A stretch of DNA of 64,000 bases from Flavihumibacter fluminis (lineage in GTDB: Bacteria; Bacteroidota; Bacteroidia; Chitinophagales; Chitinophagaceae), in assembly GCF_021491375.1 (NCBI RefSeq), contig NZ_JAKEVY010000004.1, positions 62,001 to 126,000 on the forward strand. Direction: 5' to 3'. Positions 54,962 to 63,788 of this stretch are shown in pieces (positions within the stretch are counted from its first letter, which is position 1; every line of letters starts with the position of its first letter). The notes below the pieces were generated by a model that saw nothing but the letters and a program-made list of their open reading frames with translations, had not been told where the DNA came from and searched no databases. The translations under genes and the position numbers were made by a program.

Positions 54962-55468
54962 TTATTTTATCAGTTTGATCAGGTTACCCCAGAACCAGCT
55001 CTCGTCCGCTTTAACCAGGGAGTCCAATGATTTATCTGCCTGGCCCACAAATTTCTGAATGTTTTCAATTGTATCCGTGAATGCTTTTGCTTCCCGGTTT
55101 TTCTTATCCCCTTCAACTGCCTGTAACTGCTGCAGCACTTTTAAAAGCGGTTCCAATTCCCGTTTTTTTCGCTCCTTTACAATCTGCCGGAAGACTTTCC
55201 AGATATCCTTTTCTGCCAGAAAAAACTCCTTACGCTCGCCAGGAATAATCACCCGGTCCACCAGTCCCCAGTCAATCAGTTCCCGGATATTCATGTTCGC
55301 ACTGCCCCTGCTGATACTTAGCTCTTCCATCAGATCATCCTGGCTTATGGGATCCGGTGTTACCAGGAGCAGCGCATGGATCTGGGCCATGGTTTTATTT
55401 ATGCCCCATTGCGTGGCAAGAGAACCCCAGGTCTGAATAAATTGCGCTTTTGCTGCTTCCAGTTTCAT
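54962..55468 (-). CDS. GbsR/MarR family transcriptional regulator
   Basis: Cytosolic winged-helix DNA-binding protein of 168 residues. The HTH core reads QDDLMEELSISRGSANMNIRELIDWGLV (residues 40-67, as two adjacent stretches), in the GbsR arrangement where a helical N-terminus precedes the HTH and a long charged C-terminal helix pair (residues 95-150) mediates dimerisation. Its promoter contains a 12-bp-arm palindrome, consistent with autoregulation. It lies 52 bp downstream of, and on the same strand as, the type III PKS operon, which makes it a candidate controller of that operon. Confidence 0.9.
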   Translation of the reverse strand: MKLEAAKAQFIQTWGSLATQWGINKTMAQIHALLLVTPDPISQDDLMEELSISRGSANMNIRELIDWGLVDRVIIPGERKEFFLAEKDIWKVFRQIVKERKKRELEPLLKVLQQLQAVEGDKKNREAKAFTDTIENIQKFVGQADKSLDSLVKADESWFWGNLIKLIK

Positions 55469-55491: not shown

Positions 55492-55517
55492 AATCTTTCA
55501 ATAGTTATTGAAAGATT
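55492..55517. promoter_or_regulatory. Perfect palindrome, operator candidate of the GbsR/MarR regulator
   Basis: AATCTTTCAATA (55492-55503) and its exact reverse complement TATTGAAAGATT (55506-55517) flank a 2-bp centre. It is 24 bp before the regulator ATG and 4 bp after the stop of the DUF5723 gene. It is too AT-rich and lacks a T tail on either side, so an operator is more likely than a terminator. Confidence 0.7.
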
Positions 55518-55520
55518 TAA

Positions 55521-56987
55521 CTAATAGGGAGGGCAATCCAGGCCCCGGTCCTTTTTTTCACCGGTTACGCGTTTACCCGGACGGATATTTATGGTGATAT
55601 ACCCCCCTCCATTTGCCATGGATGTTTTTCCAAATACATTACCCAGGTTATGCACCCCCAGTAGCAGGGGACCTACCTTTACAGCAGCTCCTACCCAAAA
55701 CTGGTTCTGCGCATTATAGAGTAAAGGCAGATAAGCACCCAACCTACGGGTTTCCCAACGGGGTGTCAACCGTATTGCATTCATATTTCTGACAAAGAGC
55801 CGTTGATCGCCCAACAGATTGATAACATTAATACTCAATTCAGCATTCACATAAAAGGCACTGCTAATAAACCGATCCACATTTAAAACCAGCCGGGTTG
55901 GAGCCCAGATCCGGAAATCTCCGGATAAGGTGCGCGCATCAAAAACCGCGTCTACCGAATCGGAAAATGCCTCCATATTGGCAACACCTTCCACAAAAGC
56001 CTGGTCGAGACGGTCTGCGTTTAAGCCGGTTACAGGAATTCTTCCGGTTCTGCTATTGTTACTATACCGGTAAAAAGCATACCCAAGGTCAAGAACAGAT
56101 GCACCAATTTTCCAGTCGTAATCATAATAGGTCTCCTCATCCTCCATAAACCCCGGATCACCTGCCGGCTTGATAAGGAGTTCCAGTCCGGCATCCAGCG
56201 ATAATCCCATACGCGTCGCCGTTAGTACTTCGCGAAGATTTCCCATGGTTGAACGATTGGAATTCCAGCGATCAATATTGGATGAATAACCATAGGCAAA
56301 CTGTCCCTCCCGAAGCGCATACTGAGGTTCCCCATTTACAATGGTACGTTCCCGATACATGCCATCCAATTGCATCCGACCACCTCCTATTCCCCGGTTA
56401 ACCTTCATCGTTAGTCCCGCATTGATACGAAAGCCCGGTTCATCAAATAAGGTTCTGCCAATTGCACCATATAACTCTATCCAATTGCTGGTGCGGATGC
56501 TGGCCTCCAGCGGGCTATTTCCCGGATTAAGCGCAAATAACTCATTTGCTGTTTCAATACTATCCACAAAATTGTATGACGAAGTACGGATATTGGCGAA
56601 GGATCTCAGGTTGGCACCAAACGCGACTACAGTCTTTTTCCCGAGTGCGATACGTGTATTAAGCAGGTTCAGATTCAGCTGTTCGTTACCCTTACGCGCA
56701 TATTCACCACCTGTAATAAAAAACTCAGAAGCTGTTGGAGAAGACAGAAGTGAATAATTCACCACTTTAATGACATTGGTCTGGTATTTCGCCTGTAAAC
56801 CTGCCAGCGTTACGTCCCAGGGATAAGGAATATTCACAATAGATGCCGGATTGTTATGCACACTAAGTGCACCTGCATAATTGGATCCACTGATAGCGTG
56901 ATAATCCTGAGCCGAAGCTTTGATAACACCTACAGCCAATGCAACCAATAGGATCGTACGCTTCATAGCTACGGATATCCTGCTCAT
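55521..56987 (-). CDS. DUF5723-type outer-membrane protein, last gene of the type III PKS operon
   Basis: Predicted outer-membrane beta-barrel of about 488 residues. A signal peptide (MKRTILLVALAVGVIKASAQ after a short leader) is followed by YHAISGSNYAGALSVHNNPASIVN, the N-terminal pattern of the DUF5723 barrels and similar to OmpP1/FadL-like start regions, then regular amphipathic strands. The ATG at 56987 overlaps the stop of the upstream oxidoreductase gene (ATGA), so translation is coupled; an ATG at 56966 would give a cleaner signal peptide. The operon context suggests handling of a lipid product at the outer membrane, which is inference. Confidence 0.78.
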   Translation of the reverse strand: MSRISVAMKRTILLVALAVGVIKASAQDYHAISGSNYAGALSVHNNPASIVNIPYPWDVTLAGLQAKYQTNVIKVVNYSLLSSPTASEFFITGGEYARKGNEQLNLNLLNTRIALGKKTVVAFGANLRSFANIRTSSYNFVDSIETANELFALNPGNSPLEASIRTSNWIELYGAIGRTLFDEPGFRINAGLTMKVNRGIGGGRMQLDGMYRERTIVNGEPQYALREGQFAYGYSSNIDRWNSNRSTMGNLREVLTATRMGLSLDAGLELLIKPAGDPGFMEDEETYYDYDWKIGASVLDLGYAFYRYSNNSRTGRIPVTGLNADRLDQAFVEGVANMEAFSDSVDAVFDARTLSGDFRIWAPTRLVLNVDRFISSAFYVNAELSINVINLLGDQRLFVRNMNAIRLTPRWETRRLGAYLPLLYNAQNQFWVGAAVKVGPLLLGVHNLGNVFGKTSMANGGGYITINIRPGKRVTGEKKDRGLDCPPY

Positions 56988-58126
56988 ACATAATTTTTTC
57001 CGTGAGTTTTTCCAATCAGCCACCTTGTGAGTCCCGGAAATTTGTTTCCTGCGAAAATAAGACCTTTTGATAACCAGGGGTCACCAAAAAAAGATTGGAT
57101 CATTCTGCCGGTACGTAACCTGGATGAAAAAGAACGCCGCCAGTTTTTTGTATAGAGGGTTTCCATTTCAGTTCTGGAACAGGTACCCTCCAGAAAAGGA
57201 AAGGCAGCCTGAACAGCCAGATAACTGGCATGTAAAGCCATACTCATACCGTTTCCACAAAGGGGGGTAATCAGGCCGGCAGCATCCCCCACCATCAGCA
57301 CATGATTTTCCACCTGCGATTTTGGTGCAAATGATACCTGGGCAATACTCAGTGGTTCCTGCCTTATTTTTTTTGCATCCCGAAATAGCTTGTCGAGATA
57401 GGGATTGACCGACAGGATTGTTTTTTCCATTTGTTCAATGGAATTATTACTCAGTCCCAGGTTATTGGCCGTTGTCAGATAACATAAACAATACTGAGCA
57501 TCTTCGATCCGGCTGATACCACAATAACCATCTTTAAAATTGTGAAGACTGATCAAATCTTCCGGATCATCCCATTCAATATGATATTTGATACCAATAA
57601 AATTATTGAGCTTTCCCGGCTTTTCGAGCGCGAAGGAACGATTCATTTTCAGGTCCAGGGAGGACCTTTTACCAAAACAACCTAGTACAAGCCTCGACTC
57701 CAGCAACAATCCGTTTATCTGCACTTCCATCCAGCCGTTCCTATACCGGATATCCTGCACTTTTACACCTTCCATTACGGTGGCTCCCGCCAGCTTGGCC
57801 TGACTTGCCAACAGGGCATCCAGCCGGTAGCGACTAATACCAAAACCTCCGGGGTCGAGGTCGGAAATCAGAGCAGTTCCATCCGGTGCAGTTACACGAA
57901 GGCGCCGGATTTCGGGCAATTGCAGAGAACTAATGGGTATTCCCAAACGCTCCAAAAGGGGCCGGCTTTCCTCACTGATATATTCTCCGCAAACCCGGTG
58001 AAAAGGGTAATAACTTTTTTCTATCAGAGCTACCCTATACCCTTTGTCTGCCAGCTGAATAGCAGCCGACAAACCGGCAAGGCCCCCTCCTGCTACAATT
58101 ACATCATACCGATTTGGATCCTGCAT
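56984..58126 (-). CDS. FAD-dependent oxidoreductase (geranylgeranyl reductase / aromatic hydroxylase type)
   Basis: Flavoprotein of 380 residues. The FAD Rossmann loop DVIVAGGGLAGLSAAIQLADKG is at the N-terminus, the second FAD motif VLMVGDAAGLITPLCGNGMSMAL in the middle; CGEYISEESRPLLERLG and GISRYRLDALLASQA are typical of the geranylgeranyl reductase/halogenase group. Such enzymes hydroxylate phenolic rings or reduce prenyl chains. In Streptomyces the flavoprotein SrsC oxidises methylated alkylresorcinols to quinones in a comparable operon. The frame opens at 58144; the ATG at 58126 lies just before the FAD motif. It overlaps the methyltransferase stop by 23 bp. Confidence 0.88.
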   Translation of the reverse strand: MQDPNRYDVIVAGGGLAGLSAAIQLADKGYRVALIEKSYYPFHRVCGEYISEESRPLLERLGIPISSLQLPEIRRLRVTAPDGTALISDLDPGGFGISRYRLDALLASQAKLAGATVMEGVKVQDIRYRNGWMEVQINGLLLESRLVLGCFGKRSSLDLKMNRSFALEKPGKLNNFIGIKYHIEWDDPEDLISLHNFKDGYCGISRIEDAQYCLCYLTTANNLGLSNNSIEQMEKTILSVNPYLDKLFRDAKKIRQEPLSIAQVSFAPKSQVENHVLMVGDAAGLITPLCGNGMSMALHASYLAVQAAFPFLEGTCSRTEMETLYTKNWRRSFSSRLRTGRMIQSFFGDPWLSKGLIFAGNKFPGLTRWLIGKTHGKNYV

Positions 58127-58814
58127 TACTGTTTTTTTTAACAATGATCAGCCACCTGAATGCCCAACGCCAATGGATTTCAACCTCCGTTATACCGGCC
58201 AATTGAAATAAATGCTGCCAGTCTTTTCGTTTAAACCCCCTTCTGACAGACAAGGGTGCATCATGACGAACCAGTCGCGATTGGGAAAATAATGAGGTAA
58301 GCAGGCGGATACTCCAATAGGCAATCGGATGCCGATGCAGATCATTGATAACAAAGCCGATTTGAGAGTTTTCGTACATCCATCTCAGTTGGCCTACCAG
58401 TTCTTCGTTGGTAAAATGATGGCAAAAAAGGGATGAAAAAATAATAGCGGGACGAACTGACGTATTCACCAGGCGGTAATCCGATTCCAGGTACTCTGCC
58501 TGTGGAAAAGCGTTTCGGGCATAGGTTATACAGGCCGGATTTATATCTACCCCCATGTATCGTACGCCCTCTTTTGGTAAGGCTTTTGAATCCTTTAAAG
58601 CTTTTAAATTATCACCGCCCCCACAACCGATTTCAAGGATCAGGTTATTGGCTACCGCTGTTTTCGGGACTAATTTTCGTATACCCTCCACCGTTATCTT
58701 GTGCCCGCCCAGCCACCGGTTGATAAAATCTAACTCCCGCATGTTGAGTTGTATTTCCTCAAAAGGAACAGTAAGGTCATCCAATAGTTCTTTCTGATTA
58801 ATACGTTCCTGCAT
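58104..58814 (-). CDS. Class I SAM-dependent methyltransferase of the type III PKS operon
   Basis: Methyltransferase of 236 residues: motif I LILEIGCGGGDNLKAL near residue 58, motif II MGVDINPACITYARNAFP, and the post-I region VRPAIIFSSLFCHHFT. It starts 1 bp after the polyketide synthase stop, so the two are made together; an O- or C-methylation of the polyketide ring is the natural inference, as for SrsB/BpsB in other bacteria. Which atom is methylated cannot be read from sequence. Confidence 0.88.
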   Translation of the reverse strand: MQERINQKELLDDLTVPFEEIQLNMRELDFINRWLGGHKITVEGIRKLVPKTAVANNLILEIGCGGGDNLKALKDSKALPKEGVRYMGVDINPACITYARNAFPQAEYLESDYRLVNTSVRPAIIFSSLFCHHFTNEELVGQLRWMYENSQIGFVINDLHRHPIAYWSIRLLTSLFSQSRLVRHDAPLSVRRGFKRKDWQHLFQLAGITEVEIHWRWAFRWLIIVKKNSNAGSKSV

Positions 58815-58815
58815 C

Positions 58816-59904
58816 TTACTGGTTTATTTCAAGCAGACAGGTTTCCATGGTAAGTCCCGGACCAAAAGCAGCCGCCAGTGATACCCCTTTTTTACCCGCT
58901 TCCACTAATCGTTTCAATACAAACAATACCGATGGAGAGGACATATTTCCGTAATCCCTTAATACTGATGCGGAAGCTTCCAATTTACTCTCTTCCAATT
59001 GCAATGATTTTTGAACAGCCTGTAAAATCCGTTTACCTCCTGGATGTACGCACCAATTCTGAACTTCGGTAAGCTTCGCCTTATATGCCTGCATGGCCCT
59101 TTCCAACAGCGGCTTGAAATCCGTAGATATCAATTCTGGGATATACCCGCTGAGTGTCATTAAAAAACCGGAAGACGATAATTCCCAGCTCATATCCCGT
59201 TTCCCTTTTGGCACAACTTCCGCATAAAAACCACGAATGGATGCAAGTGCTTTGCCCTGTTTTTCTGAACCCACTAATACAGCAGCTGAACCATCTCCAA
59301 AAAGAAGGGAAGCTGCAAGGTTATCCGGTGTGGGAATTTTCTGAAAATGCAGGGTACATAATTCCGTGCAAACAATCAGCACCTGGGCGGAAGGATCAGC
59401 CCGGCAGATGCTATCGGCCATTTTCAAGGCATGTAATGCCGCATAACAGCCCATGAAGTTAATGGAAGTCCGATGCAATTGCCTGGGCAGCTCCATCATT
59501 TCCATTACCTGCAGATCGAGGCCCGGCGCACTCATACCGGTACAACTCACCGTAATCAGGTGAGTGATACCGGTACTGCCGCCTGGCATGTGTTGTAAAC
59601 AATCACGTATGGCATCTACCGAAAGAGAAGCAGCATGTTTCTGATACCAGGACATCCGCAGTTCCAGGTTGGGGAAAGGTTCCAATGATTCTTCTGCCGG
59701 ATAAAACTTCCATTCCCGCATGGATTTGCTGTAGTCGGGAATACAGGAATAACGCTGCTGTATGCCACTTTGCTGGTATAAAAATTTCAGTTTTCTCGCT
59801 TCTGTAGCGTCCAATGCATACACCCGCTGCATAAAATTCAAAATCTCCGTTTGAGCATGCCGAAACGCAGGAAGGGATGTTCCGATGGATAATATTGCTG
59901 TCAA
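58816..59904 (-). CDS. Type III polyketide synthase
   Basis: Chalcone-synthase-fold enzyme of 362 residues that extends an acyl-CoA starter with malonyl-CoA and cyclises it to a pyrone or resorcinol. The full catalytic triad is present: Cys153 in NFMGCYAALHAL, His287 in WCVHPGGK, and Asn320 in RDYGNMSSPSVLFVL. The family-typical LLFGDGSAA and AAFGPGLTMET are also there. Bacterial members such as SrsA and ArsB use long fatty acyl starters to make membrane phenolic lipids. It is flanked at 1 bp on both sides by the prenyltransferase and methyltransferase genes. Confidence 0.94.
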   Translation of the reverse strand: MTAILSIGTSLPAFRHAQTEILNFMQRVYALDATEARKLKFLYQQSGIQQRYSCIPDYSKSMREWKFYPAEESLEPFPNLELRMSWYQKHAASLSVDAIRDCLQHMPGGSTGITHLITVSCTGMSAPGLDLQVMEMMELPRQLHRTSINFMGCYAALHALKMADSICRADPSAQVLIVCTELCTLHFQKIPTPDNLAASLLFGDGSAAVLVGSEKQGKALASIRGFYAEVVPKGKRDMSWELSSSGFLMTLSGYIPELISTDFKPLLERAMQAYKAKLTEVQNWCVHPGGKRILQAVQKSLQLEESKLEASASVLRDYGNMSSPSVLFVLKRLVEAGKKGVSLAAAFGPGLTMETCLLEINQ

Positions 59905-59905
59905 T

Positions 59906-60763
59906 TCATTTCCAGATTAATAGTGATCCAAACGCGGCTGTTGAACAAATGGCCGAAATAATATTCATTTTCATAAGATGCCGAAAATCAGCTTTAGCCG
60001 GATTTTTCCATACCTGAATCCCCCACCATAAGAAATATACGGATACCGGAAGAAAAAAGAGCAATAACAACAAAAACCTGTCCAGCTCCAGTTGCAATCC
60101 AAAATGAAGGCCCAGTACCAGGAAAGCCAGCATAAACAACAAACCAGAAAGCCGGAAAGTTCCCCGGATCCCCATTCGCATACTGATGGTTGTTACCCCA
60201 TCTATAGCATCCTGCCGGTGCTGATAAATTTGGGTAAGCGGATAGGCTCCTGCTAATAGGAGTGTACTGACCAACATCCCTGTAATGGGAACATTCAAGC
60301 TGAGCTTTGCATGTGAAGCATGATAACTTAGCCAGAATATAAGTCCACCCTGGCAGCTGATAACCACCAGGAACCCGAAAAAAGCGAATTTTTTCAGGCG
60401 GATCTTCCTGCTGCTGTAAGCTCTTGACGCAAGAATATAAAACGCTACAGCCATTGCAGCTGGATACGAAAGCAATAAACTCAAGCCAACAGCTATGAGA
60501 TCCATCACAAGGGTAATCGTCCACAGCTCGCGTTCAGGCGGAGGCGGATGCTCAAGTCCCCCGATTGGAGACTGATCTCTGTCCATATAACTGTTATACC
60601 CATTGCTGCTGGGGTAAACAAGAAAATGGAGGATAAAGAACAACAGCGCCGCTCTTATCCAATTGATATCAAGCGGTTGGCTGATTCCAAATAAATACAC
60701 CGGTAACAGAAAAAAGGAAAAGGGGAACCGGAGTAATTGTATGGTAGAAGATTTAATAATCAT
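59906..60763 (-). CDS. UbiA family prenyltransferase of the type III PKS operon
   Basis: Membrane protein of 285 residues with eight or nine spans. The first aspartate-rich motif is NSYMDRDQSPIGG near residue 57 and the second is RQDAIDGVTTISMRMG near residue 190, both in the places where UbiA/MenA enzymes bind the prenyl diphosphate through Mg2+. The first is NxxxDxD rather than the usual NDxxDxxxD. UbiA enzymes prenylate aromatic rings; within this operon the acceptor may be the type III PKS product. It overlaps the upstream Wzi-like gene by 11 bp. Confidence 0.85.
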   Translation of the reverse strand: MIIKSSTIQLLRFPFSFFLLPVYLFGISQPLDINWIRAALLFFILHFLVYPSSNGYNSYMDRDQSPIGGLEHPPPPERELWTITLVMDLIAVGLSLLLSYPAAMAVAFYILASRAYSSRKIRLKKFAFFGFLVVISCQGGLIFWLSYHASHAKLSLNVPITGMLVSTLLLAGAYPLTQIYQHRQDAIDGVTTISMRMGIRGTFRLSGLLFMLAFLVLGLHFGLQLELDRFLLLLLFFLPVSVYFLWWGIQVWKNPAKADFRHLMKMNIISAICSTAAFGSLLIWK

Positions 60764-62414
60764 ATTCCCGGCGGAACATATTCATACGCAGACCGAGACT
60801 GAATATAGTACTATTCCTGGTTAATCGGGCATCATCCGGAACATCGAGGTTCCGCAACATCAGGCTGGCATCAATGAATAGATTTTCTTTCAGTTCATAA
60901 CCTGCCCAGAGGGATGCATTTACACCGCTGGAGGCTCTGCCTTCACCAATATCCCATCCGTAATCAAAAGGCCTTGTAGTATACAGGCTCGCAGGCCGGC
61001 CCCCAAAATTAATGCCGGCTGAATCCAATCCCTGTTTCCAAACAATCAGCTTTCCCTGAAGCGTTAGTTTGGGGTGAGGTTGGTAACGGGCAATACCTAC
61101 CGCTTCTATGAAATTGGCACCTCGCGGATGCGCCAGGGGCTGATTGTAATGCATGTAATTCGCAACCGAATCACGGAAACTATACGTAAAAGGACGAACA
61201 ATATTCAATTCACCCTGGATATCCAGGTTCTTTATACCTGCCACATCAACATATTTCCCACCCAGTTGCAGGCCATATTTATTTCCCCACCAGCCATTGC
61301 CTCCCCGAACTTCACTCAGCTTGAATTCATCCAATAGGAGTTGTCCGTATAACTGTACCCGTTTGGCAATGTTGGCTTTGAAATCCATGCCCACATTGGC
61401 ATTATCCGGACTCCCGTTCTGCTGCTCGATGGAACGATAGAAGATGATAGGATTGAGATAACTGAAATCATACCGGTTCGGACGCCCAAATACTACCGCT
61501 TCAAAAAATCCGATATTCAGCCAGCGGGTTGCCTGCCAACTAAGGTGGTGCATGGTTACGTATTTTTTATCCAGCAGGTTATCGCCTCTTCGTATGTGCG
61601 AGGGGTTTAGTTCCATGAATAGATTCTGGTAATTCAGTTTCCAGATCCTTGTATTGATTTTCAGGAATAGATTACTATTCCCAAAGTCACTAAGGAACAT
61701 GCTTCGGTAACCATTACCGATAAAATTCCGGTCGTATCCAAATTGGATATTGATATAATCGGTTACATTAAAAAAGATGGAACCACGGGCATCGAAATAA
61801 TCGTAGGCGGTACTTTTAAAGGATTTATAATAACCGGCTCCTGGTACTGCCCGGTTTGCTGCGACAAAATCCTTCACAAAGGAAGGTGGTCTCTCCTGGT
61901 TATCAGTCACATAAAAGTCGAATCCAATCCGGTTGGCAATCATACCTCTGCCACGTGCTCCTTTTGTGTTCTGAAACAGTGATTCATCATTATCAGACTC
62001 TTTCATTACCGTGAACTGTACTACCGGATTAATGCTCAGAAAAAAATCTTTTACATCCACTAACGCAAAATCAGACGGGTACTGGTAAAAACTCTTCAGT
62101 ATCGGCTTTTTGCTCAGAAAGGCTGATTTGTCGCCACTCACCCACTCCAGGTTGTTCATCAGCGCACTCCTGCGGTTATGCGCATCTACCCGACTCAGTT
62201 CTTCTTCCGGAATAGTTTCCAGGAATTTTACCCAACCTTTACGATCGTAGGGTTTGATATGCTGAAGGGAGAGGGCACTATCACGGTACATGATTTCCAG
62301 CCGGTCCATCAGGGGCTGGTGTTTATACCCCTGGGGTAACAGTGTCGACTGGGAAAATCCCACAACCGGAAAACTTAAGCAGGCGGTGTAAAGCAGTCTT
62401 TTTATAACTTGCAT
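60753..62414 (-). CDS. Wzi-like outer-membrane protein, first gene of the type III PKS operon
   Basis: Outer-membrane beta-barrel candidate of 553 residues. A signal peptide ends at GFSQ; then YKHQPLMDRLEIMYRDSALSL and IKPYDRKGWVKFLE match the N-terminal pattern of Bacteroidota 'capsule assembly Wzi' proteins (plDRLeI...kPysRk). The rest is strands rich in Tyr, Phe and Asn, ending in an aromatic strand (FSLGLRMNMF). Wzi proteins bind capsule at the cell surface; in this operon it may instead handle the lipid product. It is divergent from pyrC with only 33 bp between start codons. Confidence 0.75.
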   Translation of the reverse strand: MQVIKRLLYTACLSFPVVGFSQSTLLPQGYKHQPLMDRLEIMYRDSALSLQHIKPYDRKGWVKFLETIPEEELSRVDAHNRRSALMNNLEWVSGDKSAFLSKKPILKSFYQYPSDFALVDVKDFFLSINPVVQFTVMKESDNDESLFQNTKGARGRGMIANRIGFDFYVTDNQERPPSFVKDFVAANRAVPGAGYYKSFKSTAYDYFDARGSIFFNVTDYINIQFGYDRNFIGNGYRSMFLSDFGNSNLFLKINTRIWKLNYQNLFMELNPSHIRRGDNLLDKKYVTMHHLSWQATRWLNIGFFEAVVFGRPNRYDFSYLNPIIFYRSIEQQNGSPDNANVGMDFKANIAKRVQLYGQLLLDEFKLSEVRGGNGWWGNKYGLQLGGKYVDVAGIKNLDIQGELNIVRPFTYSFRDSVANYMHYNQPLAHPRGANFIEAVGIARYQPHPKLTLQGKLIVWKQGLDSAGINFGGRPASLYTTRPFDYGWDIGEGRASSGVNASLWAGYELKENLFIDASLMLRNLDVPDDARLTRNSTIFSLGLRMNMFRREYDY

Positions 62415-62447: not shown

Positions 62448-63788
62448 ATGCAAAAATATCTCATAAAGAACGCGCAAATTGTCAACGAAGGAACGATTCG
62501 CACAGCGGACGTTTTGCTTTCGGGGGGACGGATTGAAAAAATCAACAGCCAAATCAGTGCCACAAATGGGGCTATCGAAATAAACGCAGAAGGAAAACAT
62601 TTATTACCCGGTGTAATTGACGACCAGGTACATTTCCGTGAACCGGGTCTCACACATAAAGCTACCATTTATACTGAATCAAAAGCTGCTGTAGCGGGTG
62701 GTGTAACCAGTTTCATGGAAATGCCTAATACACAGCCCCCGGTTTTTACGCAGGAATTACTGGAAGATAAATATGCGATCGGTGCTGCCAGTTCCCTGGC
62801 TAACTATTCCTTTTTTATGGGAACATCCAATGACAACCTGGACGAAGTGCTGCGTACCAATGAGAAGAAAGACAGGGTTTGCGGAGTAAAGATCTTCATG
62901 GGCTCCTCTACTGGGGGGTTGCTGGTAGATAACCCACTCTCACTCGAACATATATTCGAGGGTACTGAACTTTTGATTGCCACCCATTGTGAAGATGAAC
63001 GGATCATCCGCAAAAACCTCGAAGCTGCCAAAGCCAGTGGAAGAACCCTGACTGCGGCAGACCATCCTATTATCCGAAACGAAGAAGCCTGCTTTGAATC
63101 TTCTTTTTATGCTATACAACTGGCCAAGAAATTCAATACCCGGTTACATATTCTGCATATTTCAACGGAAAAGGAACTGACACTTTTCGGTAATATGTTA
63201 CCGTTAAAGGAAAAGCGCATTACCTCCGAAGTTTGTGTGCATCACCTTCATTTTACCAGTGAGGATTATGCGCAGCTGGATAACCAGATCAAATGTAATC
63301 CGGCCATCAAGGCACCAAACAACCGGACTGCCCTCTGGAAGGCACTGCTGGACGACCGGCTGGATATTATCGCAACCGATCATGCACCACATACCTGGGC
63401 CGAAAAACAGGAAGATTACCTCCATGCACATGCCGGACTTCCATTGGTTCAGCATTCACTACCCCTGATGCTGCATTATGTGAAAGAAGGGGCAATCCGG
63501 CTGGAAAAAGTAGTTGAGAAAATGAGCCATGCACCGTCAGAATGCTTCCAGATTCGCCAGCGGGGTTATATCCGGGAAGGTTATTATGCCGACCTTGTAC
63601 TGGTAGACCTGAACCAGCCGACCACGGTTTCCAAAGACAATATTTATTACAAGTGCGGATGGAGCCCGCTGGAAGGAACAACTTTCCCATCTTCGGTTAC
63701 TCACACTTTCGTGAATGGACACCTTGTTTATGGAAAAGAGGGGTTCGATGAATCACAAAAAGGAATGCGACTGGAATTTGATCGCTGA
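62448..63788 (+). CDS. pyrC: Dihydroorotase
   Basis: Pyrimidine biosynthesis enzyme cyclising carbamoyl-aspartate to dihydroorotate, 446 residues. Metal-binding HFREPG is at about residue 64 (VIDDQVHFREPGLTHK), the MEMPNTQPP motif near 94, the likely carboxylated lysine in VCGVKIFMGSSTGG near 146, and IATDHAPHTWAEK near 308 with the catalytic Asp. Length and motifs fit the class I enzyme. It starts 33 bp from the divergent Wzi-like gene and is followed after 29 bp by the MutS-like gene. Confidence 0.95.
   Translation: MQKYLIKNAQIVNEGTIRTADVLLSGGRIEKINSQISATNGAIEINAEGKHLLPGVIDDQVHFREPGLTHKATIYTESKAAVAGGVTSFMEMPNTQPPVFTQELLEDKYAIGAASSLANYSFFMGTSNDNLDEVLRTNEKKDRVCGVKIFMGSSTGGLLVDNPLSLEHIFEGTELLIATHCEDERIIRKNLEAAKASGRTLTAADHPIIRNEEACFESSFYAIQLAKKFNTRLHILHISTEKELTLFGNMLPLKEKRITSEVCVHHLHFTSEDYAQLDNQIKCNPAIKAPNNRTALWKALLDDRLDIIATDHAPHTWAEKQEDYLHAHAGLPLVQHSLPLMLHYVKEGAIRLEKVVEKMSHAPSECFQIRQRGYIREGYYADLVLVDLNQPTTVSKDNIYYKCGWSPLEGTTFPSSVTHTFVNGHLVYGKEGFDESQKGMRLEFDR

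Follow-up and report, generated by a model that had tools for sequence, protein, structure and literature searches.

A four-gene cassette of Bacteroidota joins a type III polyketide synthase to an unusual UbiA-family protein and probably builds a ring-headed membrane lipid

The srsABC operon of Streptomyces combines a type III polyketide synthase (PKS), a methyltransferase (MT) and an oxidoreductase, and in srs and pkq products it is the starter of the polyketide that supplies the tail. According to the available parts of the literature, pkqABC operons of mycobacteria and Streptomyces make polyketide quinones that are used as electron carriers (PMC9927152), MT-oxidoreductase-PKS operons are found in 58 planctomycete strains, with four of six tested planctomycete PKSs making alkylresorcinols in C. 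glutamicum (PMC10896814), and cyanobacterial hierridin-like clusters (hidABC) share the PKS-MT-oxidoreductase set, one prenyltransferase of unstated family being reported for the cluster of Raphidiopsis mediterranea (PMC8086630). In this study, we analyzed 64,000 nucleotides of Flavihumibacter fluminis (contig NZ_JAKEVY010000004.1, positions 62,001 to 126,000; hereafter the window), taken from a genome assembly of 4.71 Mb in 41 contigs. Positions 55521-62414 of the window hold six tightly packed minus-strand open reading frames (ORFs): a type III PKS, an MT, a FAD (flavin adenine dinucleotide)-dependent oxidoreductase (FMO), a membrane protein of the UbiA superfamily, and two genes, Wzi-like and DUF5723, that a preliminary description of the locus had assigned to the outer membrane.

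Comparison of this locus with its relatives identifies UbiA-PKS-MT-FMO as the unit that recurs. We hold, with somewhat better than even confidence, that these four genes are the functional unit, that they make a polyketide-headed lipid or quinone as a UbiA-extended relative of the srs, hid and pkq systems, and that the outer-membrane genes are neighbors. In many Bacteroidota, the conserved four-gene set probably builds a ring-headed membrane lipid that combines a polyketide ring with a tail, either fatty or isoprenoid.

We compared 85 loci, made up of the window, 5 named loci and 79 further stretches, after dropping one locus (L053) that lies on the same contig as another (L004), and built our profiles from them. 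Among the 71 loci that come from UbiA-bearing genomes, UbiA lies within 4 kb of the PKS gene in 64, MT in 67 and FMO in 63, and all three do so in 57. Some of the misses are contig ends, and in one such locus (L075, genome G057) UbiA proved to be next to the PKS in a separate search. The four genes run in the order UbiA-PKS-MT-FMO in one direction in 48 of these loci; in 7, UbiA is opposed and FMO lies upstream. Across 147 Chitinophagaceae genomes, the PKS query matches 83, and 66 of these matches are core PKSs by a cutoff of E < 1e-70, placed at a gap in the match list; counting the fragmented gene of genome G032 brings the core PKS to 67 genomes. UbiA matches occur in 65 of the 147 genomes, and each of the 65 shares its contig with a PKS match, at a median gap of 15 bp and a largest gap of 146 bp. 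Two of the PKS matches in these pairs are fragments, and in G032 it is a PKS fragment that UbiA stands beside. A strong MT match (E 2e-19 or better) is present in 66 of the 67 core-PKS genomes and elsewhere only in G001, G006 and G098, all with divergent PKSs, while four further genomes give values of 1e-5 to 9e-4. One genome, G027, has a split cassette; its contig C43 carries UbiA and PKS together and, about 329 kb from them, the MT match.

In a sample of 394 Bacteroidota genomes, with cutoffs again placed at gaps in the lists (E < 1e-89 for PKS, at least 325 bits for UbiA), the 26 genomes with such a UbiA are the same 26 that carry the closest PKS class. In 20 of these genomes the two genes are linked, with 8 pairs sharing an orientation and 12 opposed; in the other 6 they are unlinked. 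One other family has a sister UbiA class (119 to 158 bits) in 34 genomes, each with a more distant type III PKS; among the matches listed, that family has 45 PKS-bearing genomes, and 11 of them lack the sister UbiA, one having a broken fragment of it. The three sister-class stretches that were read (L173, L174 and L175) have no PKS nearby. Weaker UbiA matches, of 56 bits or less, occur in many more genomes and look like general UbiA background. Because the genomes are related to one another, any p-value would be inflated, and we rely here on the counts. UbiA truly belongs with the PKS-MT-flavoprotein set; its place in the same unit as these genes, proposed from the window by the preliminary description, is supported by both genome samples, and the link is stronger than a reader of the window could have known. 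Directly upstream of three UbiA genes that are unlinked from the PKS, all in one genus (L168, L169 and L170), we noticed a gene that by eye resembles another methyltransferase.

The Cys-His-Asn triad of the PKS that had been pointed out from the window, C153-H287-N320, is kept in 85 of 85 aligned sequences, and the same alignment has W240 in 83 and M249 in 79. W240 corresponds to L266 of PKS18 as read from a printed alignment, and its spacing from M249 equals that of G284 and M293 in ArsC; the match to the ArsB Trp was made through the PKS18 alignment and the ArsC spacing, with the ArsB sequence itself outside the alignment. In the available parts of the sources, L266 of PKS18 is a tunnel position (PMC6274091), and Trp at the W281 position of ArsB goes with resorcinols where Gly in ArsC goes with pyrones (PMC6274091, PMC5916927). 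Judged from this alignment, the cassette PKS carries the Trp that is linked to resorcinol-type ring closure.

A maximum-likelihood PKS tree of 89 rows (the 85 loci plus four plasmid genes, with five rows on long branches) contains a clade of 74 rows with a bootstrap of 99 and an SH-aLRT of 97, and an earlier quick tree agrees. The clade unites all 71 rows from UbiA-bearing genomes with those of G060 and G067, which makes 73 Bacteroidota rows, and with a Psychrobacter plasmid gene. The rows nearest to the window are records named Flavihumibacter and one metagenome-assembled genome named Flavipsychrobacter. Four of 182 matching plasmid records were opened, from Deinococcus, Psychrobacter, Paludisphaera and Roseomonas; all four carry a PKS-MT-oxidoreductase set without a nearby UbiA, and the UbiA query had no match in the plasmid collection to 1e-5. 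Against these four operons, the MT profile scores 109-151 bits and the FMO profile 142, 92, 57 and, for Deinococcus, only 25 bits; relatedness of the MT and FMO to PKS operons is thus measured on these four and not on the srs, hid or pkq proteins. The Paludisphaera gene, the one planctomycete PKS in the tree, falls outside the Bacteroidota clade. The gene inside it (L177) is a gammaproteobacterial PKS from plasmid 5 of Psychrobacter urativorans, which has an MT and an oxidoreductase beside it and no UbiA in the stretch shown; its position in an otherwise Bacteroidota clade suggests horizontal transfer.

From the gene content, the co-occurrence, the conserved catalytic residues and the altered UbiA motif, all observed directly, we infer each chemical step and the order of the steps. 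The type III PKS would condense an acyl starter with malonyl units, and aldol closure would yield a resorcinol or resorcylic acid. In the membrane, UbiA may then attach to the ring an isoprenoid chain or, given its altered motif, an unusual donor. Methylation of the ring by the MT and hydroxylation by the flavoprotein would give a (hydro)quinone-like membrane lipid. Such a pathway would follow the srs, hid and pkq operons with an added UbiA step, as in ubiquinone or cannabinoid synthesis. More tentatively, the cassette could represent a Bacteroidota-wide pathway to a new polyketide-headed, isoprenoid-tailed quinone or phenolic lipid made through a Gln-type UbiA, a bacterial counterpart of cannabinoid and ubiquinone logic and possibly a second redox carrier beside menaquinone. 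Of 394 sampled Bacteroidota genomes, 26 have the core PKS together with UbiA, and 67 of 147 sampled Chitinophagaceae have the core PKS, yet among the literature matches listed, which mostly leave out subscription papers, there is no product for the Bacteroidota PKS-UbiA set. Type III PKS regions of Reichenbachiella are tabulated in the available part of one paper, with four of five rows having no similar known cluster (PMC10752948), and the available parts of two others, one on darA/darB and flexirubin (PMC9606717) and PMC3098273, have no bearing on the set. Liquid chromatography-mass spectrometry offers a direct test for a polyketide-headed membrane lipid or quinone, because the PKS co-occurs exactly with an unusual UbiA even where the two are unlinked.

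Several observations weigh against this pathway as we have drawn it. Canonical UbiA enzymes carry the motifs NDxxDxxxD and DxxxD, which the cassette protein does not keep whole: 64 of 64 sequences have Gln181 at the position that in PDB entry 4od4 holds the first motif-2 Asp, and position 65, the third acidic residue of motif 1, is variable. Genome G060 has a PKS of the clade without a UbiA match, and G067 has only a weak UbiA fragment. H186 and F187 of the PKS differ from the long-chain tunnel residues N208 and A209 of PKS18 (C183 matches C205), the best NCBIfam model for the FMO is the geranylgeranyl reductase family TIGR02032 (104.6 bits, below its cutoff of 158.8), and DUF5723 follows the flavoprotein at -94 to +26 bp, measured with most-upstream starts, in 16 of 85 loci from seven genera. 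Prenyl transfer by UbiA is not assured, because of Q181 and the lack of a conserved third acidic residue. The homologue might instead keep the UbiA fold with a changed donor, or play a non-transferase role on a long-chain alkylresorcinol, and the product would then be, as with hierridin or a polyketide quinone, simply a methylated alkylresorcinol or alkylquinone. This would fit with the PKS-MT-oxidoreductase triads that exist elsewhere without a nearby UbiA, on the plasmids and in the available part of PMC10896814, and with the paralogues in the window's genome, since three of its four other UbiA-family genes have both motif-2 Asp residues; in the fourth, which by its look is heme-O-synthase-like, the two positions hold His and Glu. 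However, N57, D61, D63 and D185, most of the 4od4 motif residues, are invariant in 64 of 64, so that selection still seems to maintain an active site, and we regard this alternative as unlikely. The protein scores 62.2 bits against PF01040 (cutoff 34.2), its profile matches 4od4, and the three sister-class members read also have Gln. A further divergent UbiA-like paralogue in the window's genome (L158) has an unrecognizable first motif and the motif-2 Asp pair. A different role has also to be weighed for the flavoprotein, which may reduce the double bonds of a UbiA-added isoprenoid chain, in the manner of geranylgeranyl reductases, instead of hydroxylating the ring. In the synthesis of chlorophyll and of archaeal lipids, UbiA works alongside geranylgeranyl-type reductases, and TIGR02032 is the best model. 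Yet that score is below cutoff, flavin halogenases and a monooxygenase rank above the reductase 3oz2 when the FMO profile is run against the PDB, and related flavoproteins occur in PKS operons without a nearby UbiA (the Deinococcus match being the 25-bit one), all of which makes chain reduction decidedly improbable next to ring hydroxylation.

The preliminary description had gone further and proposed that a prenylated or chain-bearing phenolic lipid is made in the inner membrane and that two barrels then place or anchor it at the outer membrane. The phenolic-lipid half of this proposal gains from the UbiA partnership and the resorcinol-type Trp; the outer-membrane half is not supported, and as a whole we find the two-barrel model very improbable. 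What speaks for it is that all six genes stand together in 7 Flavihumibacter-group loci, along with the coupling of DUF5723 to the flavoprotein described above. The model had been made to depend on the co-occurrence of the outer-membrane genes with the PKS in relatives, and the Wzi-like gene matches 141 of 147 family genomes whether or not they have the cassette (65 of 67 with it, 76 of 80 without). Of the 85 loci, 12 have it somewhere in the stretch, and 9 of the 71 from UbiA-bearing genomes have it within 4 kb; it abuts the cassette only in Flavihumibacter. Of the 19 places checked where it shares a contig with the PKS, three (G000, G008 and G105) have only UbiA in between, two (G009 and G106) have a distance of about 2 kb with a further ORF in between, and 14 have a distance of at least 7.5 kb. 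The name Wzi-like is not confirmed by sequence: the protein has no Pfam family to E = 5 and no NCBIfam model to 0.001, and a 13-sequence profile run against the PDB to E = 5 gave one chance match (E = 0.51), which is not Wzi. Its N terminus resembles a signal peptide by eye. DUF5723, a member of PF18990 at 67.7 bits (cutoff 26.8), has strong matches (E about 3e-55 or better, with a partial match in G117 left out) in 55 of 147 family genomes, 29 of 67 with the cassette and 26 of 80 without (Fisher p = 0.23), and in 14 of those 29 it lies within 6 kb of the PKS.

We read 20 further stretches for the surroundings of these two genes. Five without the cassette (L134-L138) share one block of DUF5723, CoA-binding, RNase H-like and YihA-like genes, followed by the Wzi-like gene beside dihydroorotase. 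Two others (L147 and L152) show the DUF5723 part of that block, and three (L145, L146 and L153) the Wzi-like/dihydroorotase part. The Wzi-like gene is beside dihydroorotase, as in the window, in 8 of the 9 cassette-less stretches that show it; in L141 it is away from dihydroorotase. DUF5723 also has other surroundings, in L139, L140 and L144, which have no cassette, and in L142, L143, L148 and L149, from genomes with the cassette elsewhere. The last two stretches are L150, where UbiA has a PKS fragment next to it, and L151, a continuation of L134. Conserved outer-membrane coupling is rejected for the Wzi-like gene in view of its cassette-independent presence, and for DUF5723 the presence counts give no support. 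Because shared position does not account for all of the tight coupling seen in 16 of 85 loci, a lineage-level role for DUF5723 is possible. The outer-membrane genes beside the cassette are probably ordinary neighbors joined by position. Of the six-gene set whose conservation the preliminary description had asked about, the UbiA-PKS-MT-FMO core recurs, the Wzi-like gene is present with or without the cassette, and DUF5723 shows no significant association with it, yet is coupled in those 16 loci. Operon packing alone is no proof that a product is located in the outer membrane, and a tempting over-reading is corrected here.

The features of the locus are collected in Table 1. The ORF coordinates agree with the earlier account of 1-bp gaps and overlaps of 4-23 bp, and Pfam matches uphold its labels for PKS, UbiA, MT, flavoprotein and DUF5723. 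Wzi-like and UbiA overlap by 11 bp; UbiA and PKS, and PKS and MT, are 1 bp apart; MT and FMO overlap by 23 bp, and FMO and DUF5723 by 4 bp (ATGA; ATG at 56987). We set the FMO start at the ATG at 58126; the start in the ORF list, 58144, is an upstream TTG.

Table 1. Genes of the six-gene run and its flanks in the window
Feature	Position	Strand	Basis and remarks
MarR-like gene	54962-55468	-	Other flank of the six-gene run
DUF5723 protein, probable outer-membrane barrel by family	55521..56987	-	Pfam PF18990; coupled neighbor in part of the family
FAD-dependent oxidoreductase (FMO), probable ring hydroxylase, core	56984..58126	-	Pfam FAD_binding_3
Class I S-adenosylmethionine (SAM)-dependent methyltransferase (MT), core	58104..58814	-	Pfam Methyltransf_25; NCBIfam PRK06202 below cutoff
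Type III polyketide synthase (PKS), core	58816..59904	-	Chal_sti_synt_N/C, residue counts, tree
UbiA-superfamily integral membrane protein, Gln-type subfamily, core	59906..60763	-	Pfam UbiA, motif counts, PDB 4od4 profile match, co-occurrence
Wzi-like protein (name from the preliminary description), 553 aa, probably exported	60753..62414	-	Pfam: none; family-wide gene beside dihydroorotase; joined to the gene run in Flavihumibacter
Dihydroorotase gene	62448-63788	+	Flanks the six-gene run, divergent

The GC content of the core genes (0.442-0.463) is near that of the window (0.457), so composition gives no sign of a foreign origin. Scans of the window with Rfam at gathering scores and for tRNAs found nothing. 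The Bacteroidota promoter pattern has 1 match in the window, away from the gene run, versus 2.7 by chance, sigma-70-type sites are at chance (15 versus 15.1 expected), and terminator-like sites number 13 versus 8.9 expected (standard deviation 3.1). Just before the MarR-like gene, at 55493-55516, is a perfect inverted repeat, ATCTTTCAAT-N4-ATTGAAAGAT. Across 1.45 Mb of loci there are 13 sites with the pattern TTTCAAN6TTGAAA. Because 12 of them lie within 69 bp upstream of marR (12 of 17 marR loci), the repeat is likely an autoregulatory operator. Control of the cassette by the downstream MarR was considered and rejected, since none of the 13 strict operator sites precedes an annotated cassette gene.

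Like hidABC and the Planctomycetota operon, the cassette has a type III PKS, an MT and an oxidoreductase in one operon, and an alkylresorcinol-type ring would be expected of all of them; the available parts of the papers on those systems do not mention UbiA, save for the prenyltransferase of R. mediterranea (PMC8086630, PMC10896814), nor does the available part of the paper on pkqABC (PMC9927152). HidC stands outside our PKS tree. With srsABC and pkqABC, the cassette shares the PKS, MT and oxidoreductase set and the Trp at the ArsB W281 position, and it shows the features by which the srs/hid/pkq type is recognized, namely a PKS with its triad, an adjacent MT and flavin oxidoreductase, related MT and FMO sequences, and an ArsB-type Trp. 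The plant cannabinoid and daurichromenic-acid pathways likewise build a ring with a type III PKS and use a prenyltransferase to add an isoprenoid, but they do so with plant enzymes, and we know of no matching MT and flavoprotein operon there. In the ubiquinone pathway, UbiA, UbiG and UbiH prenylate, methylate and flavin-hydroxylate a phenolic head, as proposed here, although that head comes from chorismate and not from a polyketide synthase. Set beside these systems, the cassette appears to be a variant of the PKS-MT-flavoprotein phenolic-lipid operons to which a UbiA has been added.

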